Shown here piece by piece: positions 1-9,656 of a stretch of DNA of 9,656 nt. Position 1 is the first letter of the stretch. Every line of letters starts with the position of its first letter. The translations under genes and the position numbers were made by a program. The notes under the pieces were generated by a model, which saw nothing but the letters and a program-made list of their open reading frames with translations, did no database searches and was not told where the DNA came from. This DNA is from an uncultured Collinsella sp. (GTDB lineage Bacteria; Actinomycetota; Coriobacteriia; Coriobacteriales; Coriobacteriaceae): the NCBI GenBank assembly GCA_902478765.1, contig CABSMN010000024.1, forward strand, positions 1-9,656, given 5' to 3'.

Positions 1-46
1 TACACTTCTAGCTTCGTCGGCAGCGTCAGATGTGTATAAGAGACAG
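1..46 (+). other. Nextera i5-side adapter (sequencing artefact)
   Basis: Not genomic. Positions 28-46 are the 19-base Tn5 mosaic end and 14-27 the Read 1 part of the Nextera adapter, together a perfect 33-base match to that oligonucleotide as I know it. Bases 1-5 (TACAC) fit the end of the P5 primer, and 6-13 (TTCTAGCT) occupy the 8-base i5 index slot and match the index I recall as S515. The artefact supplies a false ATG at 30 and the false N-terminus MCIRDR to the first gene. Confidence 0.97.
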
Positions 47-47
47 G

Positions 48-1262
48 GCCATCATGATCACCTGCCTGGCGCTCAACATCCTCTCCGAGGGCATTACCGA
101 CGCCATGGCCGCTGCTCCCTCCGCCGCCCTGGATCCGACCGATTCCTCCAAGCGTCGCGAGGCCGACCTGCTGGTCTCCGACCCCGTTCGCGCCTACAAG
201 GAGCAGGCCCAGTCCCTCTCCGCTCGCCTTGGCGCCCTGCGCGATGTCGAGCTCAAGCGTGACGATCGCCATGTGCCCGACGAGTCTGTCGAACCGATTC
301 TCTCGGTCCGTGACTTCTGCATTCAGTTTGAGCATCACGGCGATATCAACGTCGTCGACCATGTCAACTTTGACGTCCGTCCTGGTCAGACCATGGGCCT
401 GGTGGGCGAGTCCGGTTGCGGTAAGTCCATCACCACGCTGGCCATCATGGGCCTGACCGACGATGACGAGCACCTTTCCGGCGAGGTCCTCTGGGAGGGC
501 CGCGACCTGCTCAAGATGAGCAAGAAGGAGTGGTTCGGCCTGCGCGGTACCGATATCGCTATGGTCTATCAGGACGCCCTGTCCTCGCTCAACCCCTCCA
601 TGCTCATCTCTGCCCAGATGAAGCAGCTCACCAAGCGCGGCGGCACCCGCAGCGCCGAGGAACTCCTGGAGCTCGTGGGCCTCGACCCCAAGCGTACGCT
701 CGAGAGCTACCCGCATGAGCTTTCCGGTGGCCAGCGTCAGCGTGTCCTGATCGCTATGGCCCTTACCCGCGACCCCAAGCTGGTCATCTGCGACGAGCCC
801 ACGACCGCTCTGGACGTTACCGTCCAGAAGCAGGTCATCAAGCTGCTCAACGACCTTCAGGCCAAGCTCGGCTTTGCCATGATCTTCGTCTCGCATGACT
901 TGGCGCTGGTCGCCGAGGTCGCCCATAACATCACGGTTATGTACGCCGGTCAGGTTATCGAGCAGGCGCCCACCAAGGAGCTGCTCACTAACCCGATCCA
1001 CGAGTACACCCGCGGTCTTCTGGGCTCCGTTCTGTCCATCGAGAGCGGTTCGGGCCGTCTGCACCAGGTGCCCGGCGCCGTTCCGAGCCCGCGCGATTTC
1101 CCCAAGGGCGATCGCTTCGCGCCCCGCTCGAGCCATCCGCGCATTGGCCTGGACACCCGTCCGGTCTTCAAGCGCGTGCCCGGCACCGAGCACTTCTATT
1201 CCGAGCTCCCCGACGAGGTGCTCAAGGCAAATGGTTTGACCCCTCACGCGGAGGTGATGTAG
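48..1262 (+). CDS. ABC transporter permease-ATPase fusion (DppC-DppD type), 5' truncated
   Basis: C-terminal part of a fusion between a DppC-type inner-membrane permease and a DppD-type ATPase of a peptide/oligopeptide/nickel-family importer. The first codons (about 48-110) read ITCLALNILSEGITDAM, which resembles the cytoplasmic end of a DppC-type permease (LafNllGDgLRDalDP). A polar linker runs to about 290, then a full ATPase domain: Walker A GESGCGKS (405-428), Q-loop VYQD (about 564-575), signature LSGGQ (720-734), Walker B LVICDEP (780-800) and H-loop histidine (894-896). The C-terminal tail has an oligo_HPY-like region, but the usual GCxFAPRC cysteines are replaced (GDRFAPRSS, 1107-1133). 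The true start lies outside the contig; the ATG at 30 is in adapter. The next ATPase starts immediately after its stop. Beside nan genes it may import sialic acid or sialoglycan, as peptide-type systems such as Haemophilus ducreyi SatABCD do. Substrate is inferred; the ATPase call is secure. Confidence 0.9.
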   Translation, partial: AIMITCLALNILSEGITDAMAAAPSAALDPTDSSKRREADLLVSDPVRAYKEQAQSLSARLGALRDVELKRDDRHVPDESVEPILSVRDFCIQFEHHGDINVVDHVNFDVRPGQTMGLVGESGCGKSITTLAIMGLTDDDEHLSGEVLWEGRDLLKMSKKEWFGLRGTDIAMVYQDALSSLNPSMLISAQMKQLTKRGGTRSAEELLELVGLDPKRTLESYPHELSGGQRQRVLIAMALTRDPKLVICDEPTTALDVTVQKQVIKLLNDLQAKLGFAMIFVSHDLALVAEVAHNITVMYAGQVIEQAPTKELLTNPIHEYTRGLLGSVLSIESGSGRLHQVPGAVPSPRDFPKGDRFAPRSSHPRIGLDTRPVFKRVPGTEHFYSELPDEVLKANGLTPHAEVM

Positions 1263-2090
1263 ATGAGCGAGACCGCAGTCAACGGCGTCGAGCCGATCAT
1301 CTTCCTTGATGACGTCCACGTCACCTTTAGGACCCGTACCGGCTCGATTCTGCACCCCAACCTGGTTCACGCCGTCCAGGGTGTAACGATTAGGCTCATG
1401 CCCGGTCAGACGATCGGCATCGTCGGCGAGTCCGGTTGCGGTAAGTCCACCACCGCCAACGTCATGTGCGGCCTGCAGGCCCCCACGAGCGGCAAGGTCT
1501 ACTTTAAGGGCAAGGACGTAACCAAGCGTACCGCCGAGGACCGTCGCCACATGGGCCGTGTCATCTCGGTCGTGTTCCAGAATCCGGCTACGGCGCTCAA
1601 TCCCCGCATGGTCGTTCGCGAGCAGCTGCTCGACCCCATGCGCGTCCACAACCTGGGTACCGAGGCCGAGCAGGAGAAGCGCGTCAAGGAGCTCCTGGAG
1701 CTCACCGGTCTGCCCAGCTCCGCCGCCGAGGTTCTTCCCGGCCAGCTTTCGGGCGGCCAGCGCCAGCGCGTCGCAATTGCCCGTGCCCTGTCGTTGAACC
1801 CCGATGCCATCATCGCCGACGAGCCCACCTCGGCTCTGGACGTTTCGGTCCGCGCGCAGATTCTGAACCTGCTGACCGACCTTAAGAAGGAGCTCGGCCT
1901 GGCCATGGTGTTCATCAGCCATGACATCCAGACGGTCCGCTATATCTCTGACGACATCATCGTTATGAATGGCGGCAAGATCGTCGAGCAGGGCGAGGCC
2001 AAGCAGGTCTTCCAGCACCCTCAGGACCCCTACACCAAGATGCTGCTCGGTGCTGCGCCGTCGCTGCTGCATCCCAAGCTCGGCGAGTAG
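1263..2090 (+). CDS. ABC transporter ATP-binding protein (DppF/OppF type)
   Basis: Second nucleotide-binding subunit (275 aa) of the peptide-type importer, expected to pair with the ATPase half of the upstream fusion on the cytoplasmic face. Visible motifs are Walker A GESGCGKST (55-63), Q-loop Q106, signature LSGGQ (162-166), Walker B AIIADEP (182-188) with catalytic Glu187, and H-loop His220. All catalytic elements are intact. The protein ends at LLHPKLGE, about 50 residues shorter than typical DppF/OppF proteins (around 320-330 aa), and lacks the cysteine-containing oligo_HPY tail. The ATG directly abuts the previous TAG, with a strong Shine-Dalgarno GGAGGTGA at 1250-1257, so the two subunits are probably translationally coupled. 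Family assignment is firm; the sialic acid substrate is inferred from the downstream nan genes. Confidence 0.92.
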   Translation: MSETAVNGVEPIIFLDDVHVTFRTRTGSILHPNLVHAVQGVTIRLMPGQTIGIVGESGCGKSTTANVMCGLQAPTSGKVYFKGKDVTKRTAEDRRHMGRVISVVFQNPATALNPRMVVREQLLDPMRVHNLGTEAEQEKRVKELLELTGLPSSAAEVLPGQLSGGQRQRVAIARALSLNPDAIIADEPTSALDVSVRAQILNLLTDLKKELGLAMVFISHDIQTVRYISDDIIVMNGGKIVEQGEAKQVFQHPQDPYTKMLLGAAPSLLHPKLGE

Positions 2091-2170: not shown

Positions 2171-3148
2171 ATGCCAAGTGCTCAGGAGCTACAACAGCAA
2201 TTTGGTGGGTATCGGGGCGCCATGCCCCGTCCATCAGATTTCGATCTCTTTTGGAAGGACCGCATGGCCGAGGCCGACGCCGTCGGGCTTGACTATGCGA
2301 TCGAGACGGCATCGGTCACCGATGCCGTGACCTGCCAGCTTTTCGACCTCTGGTATACCGGCATGTGTGGCGCTCGCCTGCATGCCAAGTACCTTAAACC
2401 CGTCTCGGACGAGCCCGTGCCATTGGTACTTCAGTTCCATGGGTATCCGGGTGCAAGCCGCAGCTGGTTTGAGCAGGCGTCGTTTGCGGGCATGGGCATG
2501 GCACTCATCGCCCTCGACTGCCCCGGCCAAGGAGGTCCCTCCGAGGACATTGGTGGATTTGAGGGCACAACGGTCGCGGGCCATATCGTCGCCGGTATCG
2601 ACGGCGATCCGGCCAACCTCTACTATGTCCGCTTGCACCAAGATATTCGCATCCTGTGCCGCATCGTTCGCGAGCTCGAGGGCATCGATCTTGCCCGTGT
2701 GTTTGTGAACGGCGCGTCGCAGGGCGGCGGTTTGGGCATTGCGACCTGTGCACTTAACAGCGAGCTTATCAATCGCGCCGCCATCCTCTATCCCTTCCTG
2801 TCGGATTTCCGCCTGGTCTGGGATTTGGATGCCGACGACATTGCCTACGAGGGCCTGCGCTATTGGTCTCGCTGGTTTGACGAGGACTCGACTCGTATCG
2901 ACGAAGCCTATGCCAAGCTGGCGTACTTCGATTCCAAGAACTTTGCCCCTATGGTCAAATGCCCCGTGCTGTTTGGCACCGGCACAGCCGATACCGTCTG
3001 TCCGCCAGCGACGCAGTTTGCGGTCTATAACAACCTGACCTGTGAAAAGCGTCATGAGTTCTTTGAAGGCTTTGGCCACGAGGAGATTCAGGATTTTGAC
3101 GATCTGATCATTCCGTTTTTCTGCAAGGGAGGGGAGGCTCATGTCTAA
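2171..3148 (+). CDS. AXE1-family acetyl esterase, intact triad (possible sialate O-acetylesterase)
   Basis: Alpha/beta hydrolase of the acetylxylan esterase/cephalosporin C deacetylase family (AXE1), 325 aa, the usual family length. Visible: N-terminal PRPSDFDLFWKDRM (19-32), typical of the family; oxyanion-loop HGYPG (90-94); nucleophile elbow GASQG (181-185) with Ser183; Asp274 in GTADTVCPP; and His303 in FGHE. The triad is complete and spaced as in known AXE1 enzymes. No signal peptide is evident, so it should act in the cytoplasm on imported substrate. In this operon, removing O-acetyl groups from sialic acid before the lyase step is a reasonable role; AXE-type esterases are linked to sialic acid use in pneumococcus. 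Start choice: ATG 2171 keeps the full family N-terminus. The nearest Shine-Dalgarno (AAAGG, 2151-2155) is rather far, 15 bases upstream. Codon use is less biased than in the ABC and nanA genes. Substrate is inferred. Confidence 0.88.
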   Translation: MPSAQELQQQFGGYRGAMPRPSDFDLFWKDRMAEADAVGLDYAIETASVTDAVTCQLFDLWYTGMCGARLHAKYLKPVSDEPVPLVLQFHGYPGASRSWFEQASFAGMGMALIALDCPGQGGPSEDIGGFEGTTVAGHIVAGIDGDPANLYYVRLHQDIRILCRIVRELEGIDLARVFVNGASQGGGLGIATCALNSELINRAAILYPFLSDFRLVWDLDADDIAYEGLRYWSRWFDEDSTRIDEAYAKLAYFDSKNFAPMVKCPVLFGTGTADTVCPPATQFAVYNNLTCEKRHEFFEGFGHEEIQDFDDLIIPFFCKGGEAHV

Positions 3149-3992
3149 GTGCGAGAGCAATGTCAATGAGCTGATTGTCTCCGACCTTGTGGGGATTCCC
3201 GGAACGGTCTCGTCAAGGCTCGCTGATTTCCGGGATTGGCGCGGTGATGCTTCTGCGGATGTTTCCGAATTAGAGATAGCCGCTTCGGACCTTGAGGTTT
3301 GCGGGCCGAGTATTACGGCGATCGATTTCGCCAATCCGTATGCCCGCTACTCCGAGGTTTCCTTTGAGCTTGGTGGCGATGTGGTCCACGCACGTTTGAT
3401 CGAGCCTGCCGGTCGCGCCCGAGCATCCGAGCTTGTGCCGCTATGTCTGATGTTTCACGACATCGACCGACCCGTGCGGGGATGGCATCACATGACGAGG
3501 TTTGCGGCCATGGGATATGCCGTGCTTGCGCTGGACGATGAGGCGATTGGATCCAGCGAGCTGCAGCAGGGGATTGCCTCTCCTGCTTTTGTTAAGCGCG
3601 TCCGTTGGGGTTGCGCGATGGCGAAGGTGGCGCGCAATCTTGATGGCGTGGACCCCGACCGCATCTTTGCATGGGGCGAGGGCCTTGGCGGCGGAGTCGC
3701 GCTGGCGGTTTCTGCTCTGGACGAGCGGGGCCTCGCCTGCACGGCGGTTGCCAATCCAATTCCCGGTGGCCTCGAGGCGTTGTCGTCTCGGGTGCGTGGA
3801 TCGGTGCTCATGGGCACATCGCTCATGGATGCCGTGAGTGATCCCAAGGGCCAGTTTGCCGTATTCAACGGTCTTGAGTGTGACCGGAGGCATATCATCT
3901 ATGCCAAATACGCTCATGAGCGCATCAACGCGTTTGAAAACGAAGTCATCGACTTTTTTAACCAAACGTTCTACCCGTGTTCTTTGGCCTAG
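3141..3992 (+). CDS. Degenerate AXE1-family paralogue lacking the catalytic serine (putative pseudoenzyme)
   Basis: A 283-aa paralogue of the preceding esterase. Blocks align by eye: FAAMGYAVLALD (121-132), DPDRIFAWGEGLGGGVAL (171-188), VLMGTSLMDAV (222-232), GQFAVFNGLECDRRH (237-251), YAHERINAF (257-265). The nucleophile position is Gly181 (GEGLG instead of GASQG), and the HGYPG oxyanion loop is HDIDR (106-110). Asp230 and His259 align with the catalytic Asp and His. About 30-40 residues present in the active enzyme after the nucleophile region are missing. The frame is open throughout and starts with a strong GGGAGGGGAGG (3127-3137) just before ATG 3141, overlapping the previous gene by 8 bases, so it is a maintained, translated gene rather than debris. 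It probably cannot hydrolyse esters by the normal mechanism. It might associate with the active esterase (AXE1 enzymes form oligomers), bind acetylated ligand, or act otherwise. Function unknown. Confidence 0.82.
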   Translation: MSKCESNVNELIVSDLVGIPGTVSSRLADFRDWRGDASADVSELEIAASDLEVCGPSITAIDFANPYARYSEVSFELGGDVVHARLIEPAGRARASELVPLCLMFHDIDRPVRGWHHMTRFAAMGYAVLALDDEAIGSSELQQGIASPAFVKRVRWGCAMAKVARNLDGVDPDRIFAWGEGLGGGVALAVSALDERGLACTAVANPIPGGLEALSSRVRGSVLMGTSLMDAVSDPKGQFAVFNGLECDRRHIIYAKYAHERINAFENEVIDFFNQTFYPCSLA

Positions 3993-4060: not shown

Positions 4061-4981
4061 GTGGCAACTCAGAAATTCACCGGCGTTATCCCTCCCGTCG
4101 TTGTTCCCGATACCGAAGACCACCAGCTCGACGTTGCCTCCTTTGAGCGCAGCATCAACCGCATGATCGATGCCGGCGTCGATGGCCTGTTCTTCCTGGG
4201 CTCTTCGGGCGAGGTCGTTTTCTCCACCGATGAGCGTCGTCGCCAGATCATCGCCGAGGCCGTTCGTATCGTCGACCACCGCGTGCCCGTCCTGGTCGGC
4301 ATCATCGATACCGAGACCGAGCGCATGATCGAGCACGGTAAGGTCGCTCAGGAGCTGGGCGCCGATGCGCTTGTCGCCACCTGCCCGTTCTATGCCCTGC
4401 AGGGCATGACCGAGGTCGAGGAGCACTTCCGCATCCTGCACGAGGAGCTCGACCTGCCCATCTTTGCCTATGACATTCCCGTCTGCGTTCACACCAAGCT
4501 CCCCTGGAAGCTCCTTGCCAAGCTCGGCGCCGAGGGCGTCCTTGCTGGCGTCAAGGATTCCTCGGGTGATGACATCTCGTTCCGCTATCTCGTTCAGGAG
4601 AACGAGAAGAACGGCCATCCGATGAGCATCCTCACCGGTCACGAGGTTGTTGTCGACGGCGCTTACCTCGGTGGCGCCGACGGTTCTGTCCCGGGCCTTG
4701 CCAACGTTGAGCCCGAGGGCTACGTGCGCCAGTGGAAGGCCGCTCAGGCCGGCGACTGGGCTACCGTCAAGGCCGAGCAGGATCGCCTCAATGAGATTTC
4801 GCACATCTGGGACGTCACCTCGGGCGTCCAGGGCTATGCCGGTGGCGTCGGCGCCTTCAAGACCGCTATGAACCTCATGGGCATCTTCGACAGCCCGACC
4901 ATGCCGCGCCCGGTGAAGGCCATGACCGGCGAGAACGTCGAGGCGATTAGGAAGGTCCTTCAGGACAACGGTCTCCTGTAA
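4061..4981 (+). CDS. nanA: N-acetylneuraminate lyase (DapA/NanA-family aldolase)
   Basis: Class I aldolase of the DHDPS/NAL family, 306 aa, expected to split N-acetylneuraminate into N-acetylmannosamine and pyruvate in the cytosol. Visible: pyruvate-binding GSSGE (47-51), Tyr111 in CPFYALQ, Tyr137 in YDIP, and Schiff-base Lys165 in GVKDSSGD. The family is certain. The lyase assignment rests largely on neighbours nanK and nanE, because the E. coli NAL substrate segment (YDE before the AGADG block) reads HEV here (194-196) and YNIP..SG is YDIPVCVHT. The GTG start with AAGGAG at 6-base spacing gives a normal length; a longer frame from 3977 overlaps the previous gene and lacks a suitable ribosome site. 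Codon use is strongly biased to C- and G-ending codons, suggesting high expression. An alternative is another DapA-family aldolase (2-keto-3-deoxy sugar acid type). Confidence 0.85.
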   Translation: MATQKFTGVIPPVVVPDTEDHQLDVASFERSINRMIDAGVDGLFFLGSSGEVVFSTDERRRQIIAEAVRIVDHRVPVLVGIIDTETERMIEHGKVAQELGADALVATCPFYALQGMTEVEEHFRILHEELDLPIFAYDIPVCVHTKLPWKLLAKLGAEGVLAGVKDSSGDDISFRYLVQENEKNGHPMSILTGHEVVVDGAYLGGADGSVPGLANVEPEGYVRQWKAAQAGDWATVKAEQDRLNEISHIWDVTSGVQGYAGGVGAFKTAMNLMGIFDSPTMPRPVKAMTGENVEAIRKVLQDNGLL

Positions 4982-4987
4982 AGCTTC

Positions 4988-5075
4988 CCAGGCACCCGAC
5001 CTCGCCGTTCAACCGTGTGGCCATGACCCATTAGGTCAATGGCCACACGGTTTCTCGGCGATCTCGGACACCTGG
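4988..5075 (+). repeat. Long imperfect inverted repeat between nanA and nanK
   Basis: The core is a perfect 14-bp stem, 5011-5024 (AACCGTGTGGCCAT) with 5039-5052. A 1-base bulge (A5038), then 4 more pairs (5025-5028 with 5034-5037), close a CATTA loop. Pairing continues outward: CGCCG 5003-5007 with CGGCG 5056-5060, CCGA 4996-4999 with TCGG 5064-5067, and CCAGG 4988-4992 with CCTGG 5071-5075, separated by small internal loops. It begins 6 bases after the nanA stop. Only TTTCTCGG follows the core, so it is not a classical U-tract terminator; an mRNA 3'-end stabiliser, partial terminator or processing site is likely. Confidence 0.7.
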
Positions 5076-5152
5076 AAAACCTTTACTGCGCTGTGACGGC
5101 TAGCCTGACGGCGCATTTCCTGTAGTTGTTTTTATCTCCGAAGGAGAGCGAC

Positions 5153-6118
5153 ATGGAGAACAAGTACGTCTGCTCTGTCGATATCGGCGGAACTAAAATT
5201 GCGACTGCCATCATGGAGTACCCGGCTGACGGTAGTGTGCCCCATCCCGTTTTTGAGGCCGAGATTCCTACCGAGGCCCAGGAGGGCGGCGAGGCCGTCT
5301 TCCAGCGTATCGAGGCGTCTATCAAGGCCGCTCTTGAGGCGAATCCCGATGTCGAGGTTCTCGGTGTCGGTATCGGTGCCGCAGGCGTCGTCGATCCCAA
5401 GACGGGCGCCATTGCTTATGCCAATGAGATCATGCCCGGCTGGTCCGGCGTTCAGTTGGGGCCGCGTCTGCGCGAGGACCTTGGTCTTCCCGTTGCCGTT
5501 GTGGGCGACGTGCAGGCTCATGCTCTGGGCGAGGCCCACTGGGGCGTCGGCAAGGGCAAGTTCTCCGTCTTGTGCCTGGGAATCGGTACGGGCATCGGTG
5601 GCGCATATGTCGAGAACGGCCGCGTGATGCAGGGCTTCCATGGTGCTGCCGGTCATATGGGCCACATCGAGTGCTCGGCTGCCGCCGGCATTCCCTGCGC
5701 CTGCGGGCGTTCCGGCCATCTTGAGTCTGTTGCTTCGGGCACCTCGATTGGCCGTATGTACGACGAACGCTTCGGTCGAGTTGACCCCAGCCGTCCTTCG
5801 GTCGGTCGCGACGTGAACGACCTGTGTCGTGCTGGCGACGCAAAGGCGACCGAGGTCATCCATGACGCCGGCTTTGCGCTGGGCGCCAGCTTGGGCTCGC
5901 TTGCCAATATTCTGGATCCAGAGGTCATCGTGCTTTCGGGCGGCGTAATTCATCAGGGTCCCGATTGGCGTTCGCAGACGTGGAAGGATTCGGTGCACGA
6001 GGGCTATGCCAGCCAGGCGCTCGATCCGCTCCAGGACACGCCGATCCTCATCGGTTCTCTGGAGGGCGACGCGCCGCTTATCGGTGCCGCTGAGCATCTT
6101 CTTGCCTCGTTAAAGTAA
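5153..6118 (+). CDS. nanK: ROK-family sugar kinase, probable N-acetylmannosamine kinase
   Basis: ROK-family kinase, 321 aa, expected to phosphorylate N-acetylmannosamine to ManNAc-6-P with ATP, between the lyase and the epimerase. Visible: N-terminal phosphate loop DIGGTK (10-15); GVGIGAAGVVD (71-81); probable catalytic Asp119 in GDVQAHALGE (usual NDANAAALGE, so flanking residues differ); GIGTGIGGAYV (143-153); sugar- and zinc-binding stretch GAAGHMGHIE (164-173) followed by CACGRSGHLE (182-191); and C-terminal VIVLSGGV (258-265). The ROK CxCGxxGCxE zinc motif has His189 in place of the third Cys, which could still bind zinc. No N-terminal DNA-binding domain is present, so this is a kinase rather than a NagC/XylR-type repressor. 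ATG 5153 is chosen for AAGGAG at 5141-5146, 6 bases upstream; an earlier ATG at 5126 lacks such a site. Sugar specificity is inferred from context; glucokinase is the main alternative. Confidence 0.87.
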   Translation: MENKYVCSVDIGGTKIATAIMEYPADGSVPHPVFEAEIPTEAQEGGEAVFQRIEASIKAALEANPDVEVLGVGIGAAGVVDPKTGAIAYANEIMPGWSGVQLGPRLREDLGLPVAVVGDVQAHALGEAHWGVGKGKFSVLCLGIGTGIGGAYVENGRVMQGFHGAAGHMGHIECSAAAGIPCACGRSGHLESVASGTSIGRMYDERFGRVDPSRPSVGRDVNDLCRAGDAKATEVIHDAGFALGASLGSLANILDPEVIVLSGGVIHQGPDWRSQTWKDSVHEGYASQALDPLQDTPILIGSLEGDAPLIGAAEHLLASLK

Positions 6119-6135
6119 ACATAACTACCAAGTGC

Positions 6136-6233
6136 GCCTTCTGAGGTGCCGCAGATTGACGTGAAAGAGGAGCGAAGCGTACTTCGGTACGCGAGCGACG
6201 GTTTGAACGTCAAGGTGCGGTGTCTCAGAAGGC
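6136..6233 (+). repeat. 98-nt structured palindromic element upstream of nanE
   Basis: Outer stem of 10 perfect pairs, 6136-6145 (GCCTTCTGAG) with 6224-6233. Pairing continues as three G-U wobbles (6146-6148 with 6221-6223), five pairs (6149-6153 with 6216-6220), a 2x2 mismatch, and seven pairs (6156-6162 with 6207-6213). In the centre a separate perfect 6-bp stem (6177-6182 with 6187-6192) is capped by a cUUCGg tetraloop and flanked by direct repeats GAGCGA (6170-6175 and 6193-6198). The three consecutive wobbles favour pairing as RNA on this strand. It ends 7 bases before the nanE ribosome site. Candidates are a dispersed REP/MITE-like repeat, a cis-regulatory leader or an RNA-processing site. 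No known riboswitch class is recognised. Confidence 0.72.
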
Positions 6234-6258: not shown

Positions 6259-6945
6259 ATGACCGTCGATCCTTTGATCCAGTCCCTGAAGGGTAAGCTC
6301 GTCGTGAGCGTTCAGGCGTATATGGGCGAGCCGCTTCGTACGCCCGAGACCATGGCTCAAATGTCTCGCGCTTGCGAACTCGGCGGCGCCGCCGCCATTC
6401 GCTGCCAGGGCCTTGCCGACATTGCCGCCATTAAGGGTCGCTGTGAGGTTCCTGTTATTGGCCTATGGAAGGATGGACACGAGGGCGTTTACATCACGCC
6501 GACGCTGCGTCACGCCCGCGCCTGCGTTGCTGCTGGTGCCGATATCGTGGCGATCGACGCCACCGATCGTCCGCGCCCCGATGGCAAGACGGTCGAGGAT
6601 ACCTTCCGTCCGCTGCACGAGGAGGGTGTGCTCCTGATGGCGGATTGTGCCACCATCGAGGACATTCGCCGTGCGGTTGATATGGGCTTCGACCTGGTAT
6701 CTACCACGCTCTCTCACGGTGTCGCCGCCATCGACTGCACCATGGCCGATGGCCCCGACCTGCCGCTCCTGCGTCAGGCGACCGAGGAATTCCCCGGCCT
6801 TCCCATCATTTGCGAGGGTCGCGTGCATACGCCCGAGGAGGCTCGCGCCGCGATCGATGCTGGCGCCTGGGCCGTTGTCGTCGGCACCGCCATCACGCAC
6901 CCCACGAGTATTACAAGTTGGTTCAAGGCTGCGCTTGAGGCGTAA
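6259..6945 (+). CDS. nanE: Putative N-acetylmannosamine-6-phosphate 2-epimerase
   Basis: TIM-barrel NanE-family epimerase, 228 aa (normal length), converting ManNAc-6-P to GlcNAc-6-P in the cytosol so that sialic acid carbon enters amino sugar catabolism. Visible: SVQAYMGEPLR (17-27), AAAIRCQG (44-51), GLWKDG (68-73) with probable catalytic Lys71, ITPT (79-82), ADIVAIDATDRPRP (94-107), MADCAT (127-132), STTLSHG (148-154), CEGRVHTPEEA (185-195) with probable catalytic Glu186, and AVVVGTAITHP (205-215) for phosphate binding. The ATG at 6259 with AGAAAGG (6241-6247) is preferred; the in-frame GTG at 6220 lies inside the hairpin arm upstream. It is the last nan gene; a terminator-like hairpin follows about 50 bases after the stop. 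Confidence 0.93.
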   Translation: MTVDPLIQSLKGKLVVSVQAYMGEPLRTPETMAQMSRACELGGAAAIRCQGLADIAAIKGRCEVPVIGLWKDGHEGVYITPTLRHARACVAAGADIVAIDATDRPRPDGKTVEDTFRPLHEEGVLLMADCATIEDIRRAVDMGFDLVSTTLSHGVAAIDCTMADGPDLPLLRQATEEFPGLPIICEGRVHTPEEARAAIDAGAWAVVVGTAITHPTSITSWFKAALEA

Positions 6946-9620: not shown

Positions 9621-9656
9621 CTGTCTCTTATACACATCTGACGCTGCCGACGAAGC
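9621..9656 (-). other. Nextera i5-side adapter, reverse complement (sequencing artefact)
   Basis: 9621-9639 is the reverse complement of the Tn5 mosaic end and 9640-9653 that of the Read 1 adapter. The last three bases (AGC) match the reverse complement of the last three index bases at 11-13. The 36 bases are an exact inverted copy of 11-46. Not genomic. Confidence 0.97.

Follow-up and report, generated by a model that had tools for sequence, protein, structure and literature searches.

We found that the sialic acid (nan) locus of the Collinsella aerofaciens group carries two overlapping genes of the AXE1 esterase family, here called A and B, and that the second encodes a paralogue predicted to be inactive. 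B is probably an obligatory subunit that binds A, and A is likely to deacetylate imported sialic acid (we give this reading a probability of about 0.7). The locus was analyzed in a window of 9,656 nucleotides from an uncultured Collinsella sp. (contig CABSMN010000024.1), and all positions refer to this whole stretch of DNA (Table 1). Comparison with related genomes supports a wider observation: at the sequence level, the single pair becomes an order-wide, sometimes fused, enzyme/pseudoenzyme system.

Table 1. Features of the A/B gene pair and the surrounding nan locus in the window.
Feature	Position	Strand	Basis or remark
Oligopeptide-type ABC transporter ATPase, OppD/DppD-like	30..1262	+	first codons within adapter sequence
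Oligopeptide-type ABC transporter ATPase, OppF/DppF-like	1263..2090	+	
A, AXE1/CE7 serine esterase, 325 aa, Ser183-Asp274-His303, PGQ for RGQ	2171..3148	+	PF05448, 3fcy, triad columns
PGQ of A (residues 118-120), replacing CE7 RGQ	2522..2530	+	alignment; signature per PMC9728288, PMC6282417
TCG codon, Ser183 nucleophile of A	2717..2719	+	
GGGAGGGGAGG, purine-rich ribosome-site-like stretch just 5' of B	3127..3137	+	sequence reading
A stop/B start overlap, 8 bases	3141..3148	+	
B, AXE1-fold paralogue, 283 aa, ATG start, Gly181 for nucleophile Ser, predicted non-catalytic partner	3141..3992	+	
Asp107 of B (FHD)	3459..3461	+	Asp in 41/41 B; Gly in 39/39 A and ten outgroup AXE1s
GGC codon, Gly181 of B at the nucleophile position	3681..3683	+	
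Arg261 of B (HERIN)	3921..3923	+	41/41 B; column is Glu in 40/41 A, Gly/Ala/Thr in ten outgroups
DapA/NanA-family lyase, likely N-acetylneuraminate lyase	4061..4981	+	PF00701; NanA and DapA models below cut-offs; context
ROK-family sugar kinase, likely ManNAc kinase	5153..6118	+	PF00480; kinase models below cut-offs
NanE, putative ManNAc-6-phosphate 2-epimerase	6259..6945	+	PF04131; NF002231 264.4 bits vs cut-off 189

Both proteins matched the Pfam AXE1 model (PF05448; 279.8 bits for A and 91.9 bits for B, against a cut-off of 21) and were 27% identical across 255 alignment positions. The nearest solved relative of A was 3fcy (8.7e-72), and B has the CE7 version of the alpha/beta hydrolase fold. 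The nucleophile motif reads WGEGLGG in B and NGASQGGG in A, and the oxyanion-loop region reads FHDIDR in B and FHGYPG in A. The initial annotation had placed Gly181 at the nucleophile and HDIDR at the oxyanion loop of B, with the Asp and His positions kept; all of these readings were confirmed, the retained residues being Asp230 and His259. The ribosome site and the 8-base overlap with the Ser-type gene were also found as it had described them. No obvious signal peptide was seen in A or B when judged by eye; thus, both proteins are likely to be cytoplasmic and to act after transport.

We then surveyed 395 genomes of the order to which Collinsella belongs. PF05448 was detected in 61 of them, the same 61 that contained A at E ≤ 1e-20, and B adjoined A or was fused to it in every one (61/61; 40 order-wide and 21 Collinsella genomes). 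No AXE1 without a partner was found in the 395 genomes at the thresholds used, with a limited number of candidates scored per genome, so that a very divergent lone AXE1 could escape. Five further genomes of the order gave weak B matches alone (E from 4.5e-5 to 9e-4). The nucleophile position is Gly in 41/41 B (the window and 40 order-wide sequences) and Ser in all 40 A sequences that cover it. Gly was also present in 149/149 unfused B-type database matches examined, many of which are near-identical. In the 28 unfused loci, including the window, the start of B overlaps the stop of A in 23; in the other five it comes 1-6 bases after that stop, when the nearest start is chosen for B.

The gene order OppF-A-B-NanA-ROK-NanE was preserved wherever the contig reached in 59 loci (19 from named Collinsella records, 40 from the order-wide set; OppF 53/53, NanA 57/57, NanE 56/56). 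The homologue, synteny and Gly-conservation check proposed in the initial annotation thus came out in favor of a maintained pair, with synteny in every locus with sufficient contig and an unchanged Gly. NanE was found in 179/395 genomes, including 59 of the 61 pair-bearers; the two without it (G033 and G126) have cut nan contigs. Since NanE occurs in 179 genomes and the pair in 61, the pair is dispensable for sialate breakdown as such and marks a subset of nan loci. Outside the order, searches of 266 genomes of the phylum, a few of them from the order, gave generic AXE1-like matches with the B profile (best 1e-30, versus 8e-82 inside), and among the phylum matches listed outside the order, none occurred as two side-by-side genes. 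Ten outgroup AXE1s had one match each in their short locus.

The CE7 signature is given as RGQ, GxSQG and HE in the accessible part of PMC9728288. A has GxSQG, HE and the Ser-Asp-His triad (Ser in 40/40 sequences covering it, Asp and His in 41/41). The Glu of HE is present in 38/41 A and is Val in three; the window A reads HEE. The RGQ motif is PGQ in all 39 A sequences covering it, and the ten outgroups have Arg (nine) or Lys (one) at that column. RGQ was likewise absent from 79 non-fused A-like database matches (P0193-P0271), in which PGQ was recognized in 73 by pattern and in five more by motif; it was not found in P0195. In B, GxSQG is replaced by GEGLG. At the Arg column of RGQ, the window B carries Glu and 38/41 B carry Arg without a following GQ. 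HE is present in the window B (H259-E260); across B, its His is found in 38/41 and its Glu in 41/41.

To follow B within the genus, we compared 43 Collinsella genomes. A gene-level match was found in 22 of them, of which 21 were full length with 85-99% identity and one was at 45%. No stops occurred in the 21 full-length orthologues, the 8-base overlap was present in 22/22 Collinsella sequences (window included), and the nucleophile codon of B was only GGC or GGT across the window and the 21 sequences. The dN/dS of B had a median of 0.18 (range 0.10-0.42; NG86, 223/231 pairs), and that of A had a median of 0.048 (range 0.02-0.22; NG86, 222/231 pairs), with pairs of dS ≤ 0.05 excluded. Purifying selection on B is clear, and it is about four times looser than on A. 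Of 20 named loci with B, 19 were from Collinsella and one was a weak match in a Rhodanobacteraceae MAG. A sequencing artefact was ruled out, because the same gene is present in named isolates and further genomes.

These data bear out the description of B as a maintained pseudoenzyme, with purifying selection, intact frames in Collinsella, synteny and an invariant Gly. Decay, for which a dN/dS near 1 or frequent stops had been named as signs, was rejected on the same values. The other sign that the initial annotation had named, an alternative nucleophile, may still apply, although B has lost the triad His and Asp in three genomes of a single genus. Over 38 loci, mean identity was 37% for B and 61% for A. 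This faster change of B counts against the partner reading, although it would be expected of a looser partner as well as of a protein with a new function. The A and B distances were correlated over the same number of loci (r = 0.80, uncorrected for the species tree).

A quick tree of 84 rows placed A and B as sister clades (support 99 and 100, respectively) against ten outgroup AXE1s of other actinobacteria; eight rows had been left out (two A fragments and six near-duplicates), and the two A fragments were also omitted from the A-specific site counts. This topology points to one old duplication that took place no later than the base of the order. Five residues of B (Asp107, Arg120, Gly181, Arg261, Asn263) are present in 41/41 B and absent from A and the ten outgroups at those columns. 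The corresponding residues of A are Gly, mostly Ser, Ser, Glu and mostly Gln. Position 180 of B is Glu in 39/41 and Asp in 2/41; Glu is absent there from A and the outgroups, and Asp occurs in 11/40 A. The column shared by residue 305 of A and residue 261 of B has Glu in 40/41 A, Arg in 41/41 B, and Gly, Ala or Thr in the ten outgroups. The triad is kept less strictly in B, with Asp in 36/41 and His in 38/41. Three genomes of one genus have lost the His (3/41) together with the Asp, and the Asp is lost in 5/41 overall. Because the triad is variable and the new residue set is invariant, it is the new set that B most strictly guards. Nevertheless, most B retain Asp and His, so the pocket may still be used, and the new set could also reflect a remodelled pocket rather than a mere scaffold.

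The N-terminal extension, the beta-interface loop and the three-helix insertion have been described as the CE7 subunit contacts, needed for the oligomer, stability and activity (PMC6209228, accessible part). The three-helix bundle touches the loop that precedes the catalytic-His helix of the neighbouring subunit, according to the available text of PMC6282417. We explored these elements in both proteins. A is complete for them (N-terminal extension in 38/41 rows, beta-interface loop in 39/41, three-helix insertion in 40/41, some rows being fragments). In fused B (13/13), the extension is down to 0-1 of its 31 residues, the loop to 7-11 of 35 and the insertion to 0 of 40; the window B has 24/31, 17/35 and 2/40, respectively. 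Unfused B mostly retain the extension (19-31 of 31 residues). Their insertion is whole in 16/28 and reduced to at most seven residues in 7/28, and their beta-interface stretch has at most 23 residues in 19/28 and at least 35 in 9/28. Loss of the ring-building elements is thus found in fused B and in part of the unfused B, and is not general. The B-specific HERIN motif sits at the His loop and helix. We infer that B would present the old contact face to A, and that the fused and window forms would no longer build a homo-ring.

A and B were found in one open reading frame, the Ser half followed by the Gly half, in 13 genomes of five genera. The A half is cut by the contig end in three of these loci (G168, G123 and G171). 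A TAG counted in the G168 match was considered as a defect and dismissed, since the frame reaches the end of the B domain and the TAG is its end stop. A database search with a natural fusion gave, among the matches listed, 41 proteins longer than 450 aa, of which 40 are Ser-then-Gly. The only other one, P0190 (522 aa), combines an A-type esterase with a PF02153 domain. The source of one Ser-then-Gly fusion, P0123, labels it as an Oscillospiraceae MAG, which would point either to a binning error or to transfer beyond the order. P0167 and P0190 were left out of the fusion alignment; PGQ was present in 40/40 fusions. Fused B form one clade (SH-aLRT 98) and fused A form one clade (81), so the fusion likely arose once and counts as one event. 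In G017 (L059, 8461-10353), unfused A and B share a frame with a single stop between them, like an intermediate towards fusion. The structure prediction of a fusion was confident (pLDDT 92.9, pTM 0.92), and the model suggests one defined two-domain packing, as judged from pTM. The B structure alignment contained 36 sequences chosen out of 150.

On this evidence, the suggestion of the initial annotation that B is a partner in a mixed oligomer appears well placed: no lone AXE1 in the 395 genomes, natural fusions and a confident single-chain fusion model are all consistent with it. B would take the position of a second A subunit, packing against A, and would complete or stabilize A by analogy with prozyme-type dead paralogues. 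Like those, B lacks a catalytic residue, and it co-occurs with the active paralogue in 61/61 AXE1-bearing genomes. The opposite charges at A305 and B261 may favor A:B over A:A or B:B contacts. Pneumococcal Axe is a CE7 member. B is predicted to be inactive because its nucleophile is lost, and in pneumococcal Axe, the change Ser181Ala abolished activity (PMC5352144, accessible part). A would strip O-acetyl groups off imported sialic acid ahead of the NanA reaction. This putative substrate is suggested by the operon, in which nanA-, ROK- and nanE-like genes lie downstream wherever the contig reaches, and by the finding that O-acetylated sialic acid can be a substrate of such esterases (PMC5352144 and PMC10017367, accessible parts). 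However, the available text of PMC5352144 reports that Axe acts on mucin in vitro, yet pneumococci from which it was removed showed no measurable change in mucin use, which counts against sialic acid as the substrate of A.

A more specific version of the pairing is that of a composite esterase. A lacks the Arg of RGQ and keeps GxSQG and HE; B lacks the Ser and keeps the Arg (38/41, window B excepted). With these complementary losses, neither protein might be complete alone: the homo-oligomer would have been rebuilt as an A:B unit whose halves need each other and carry complementary charges at the former subunit contact, and then as a single chain in some genera. We regard this version as doubtful. 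It is unlikely that B instead became a functional protein that binds a ligand or has a new chemistry, with a remodelled pocket (Asp107, Glu180, Arg120, Arg261, Asn263 and usually Asp230/His259) that would act on a related derivative of sialic acid or sense it. The five invariant residues and the near-invariant Glu180 would suit such a role, several of them being at or next to ancestral active-site motifs, and so would the Asp and His retained in most B and the whole three-helix insertion in 16/28 unfused B. However, the insertion is absent in 13/13 fused B and nearly so in the window B, one genus, in its three genomes, lacks His and Asp but retains the other invariants, and A was always found beside B.

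The constant position of B between the transporter gene and nanA, in every locus with sufficient contig, could also mean that B regulates or adapts something other than A, such as the ABC transporter or NanA, and is merely co-transcribed with A. We consider this quite improbable, as the fusions found join B to A and not to OppF or NanA, the A305/B261 charge contrast lies between A and B, and B is the sister paralogue of A; paralogue pairs of oligomeric families commonly retain contact. There is next to no chance that a tandem duplication left B behind as a decaying or neutral remnant. The faster change of B and the missing CE7 elements of some family members would fit a remnant; this reading is refuted by the dN/dS of 0.18 and the absence of stops in the 21 Collinsella orthologues, the retention in 61/61 genomes, the invariant residues and the one old origin.

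The preferred reading, a dead partner of A, sets the pair apart from known CE7 enzymes. The solved CE7 structures are hexamers (PMC6209228, PMC6282417), and two other members were a trimer or tetramer by gel filtration (PMC9728288), as far as the accessible parts of these papers go. The AXE/CAH enzymes of Bacillus pumilus and B. subtilis, Thermoanaerobacterium Axe1 (3fcy) and Thermotoga TM0077 are described, in the source text available, as homo-oligomers of identical active subunits. In contrast, a Gly-nucleophile paralogue accompanies the enzyme here, A has PGQ, and B has neither RGQ nor GxSQG. The pneumococcal Axe protein, a serine esterase that carries the annotation acetylxylan esterase, frees acetate from mucin in vitro and needs its Ser; like EstA, which also belongs to the esterases that deacetylate sialic acid or mucin, it is a single active protein for which the accessible part of PMC5352144 describes no dead partner.

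Dead paralogues that serve living enzymes have been best worked out in eukaryotes, and the prozyme pairs are eukaryotic and have other folds. In the trypanosomatid pairs, AdoMetDC with its prozyme (PMC5201418) and DHS with a dead paralogue (PMC3663545), the active enzyme needs the dead paralogue, according to the available text of both papers. The present pair differs in being bacterial, in having the alpha/beta hydrolase fold, and in its overlapping genes and natural fusions; activation of A by B is suggested here by analogy. Our literature search, which mostly did not extend to subscription papers, gave no description of such an AXE1 enzyme/dead-paralogue pair in the accessible text of the matches listed. 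The principle of an enzyme with a dead paralogue is thus known already, and this bacterial AXE1 pair appears to be a new variant of it. In this bacterial example, an evolutionary series comes with the family, from a separate overlapping pair to a natural fusion, and the solved structures of the family are homo-hexamers. This series makes the transition from homo-oligomer to enzyme/pseudoenzyme directly testable in small soluble proteins. The pair also bears on how gut Collinsella and its relatives handle O-acetylated mucin sialic acid, and the label "acetylxylan esterase" is likely wrong for both genes, for A in its substrate and for B in its activity.

Some further observations were made along the locus. 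The genes 3' of nanE are presumably rapZ-, whiA- and gap-like. Exact copies of one sequence, which we take to be a sequencing transposase adapter, lie at both ends of the window (28-46 on the plus strand and 9621-9639 on the minus strand; 0 expected in shuffles), and the outermost bases, together with the first codons of the reading frame at 30-1262, are likely not genomic. In the locus L075 (G080), the NanA match is split over two open reading frames (292 and 248 bits), and this nanA copy may be frameshifted or misassembled. A strong hairpin between the ROK gene and nanE (6136-6233, z = −6.5), without an Rfam match above the gathering score, is one copy of a palindromic repeat that is scattered over many places (G001 has 17 matches, G003 has 11). 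The nan locus of G003 has no such match, so the presence of the repeat at this site varies between genomes. A second, very stable hairpin lies between nanA and the ROK gene (4980-5083, −44 kcal/mol, z = −10.4) and has few other matches in G001 and G003; it is possibly an attenuator or a processing site in the operon.
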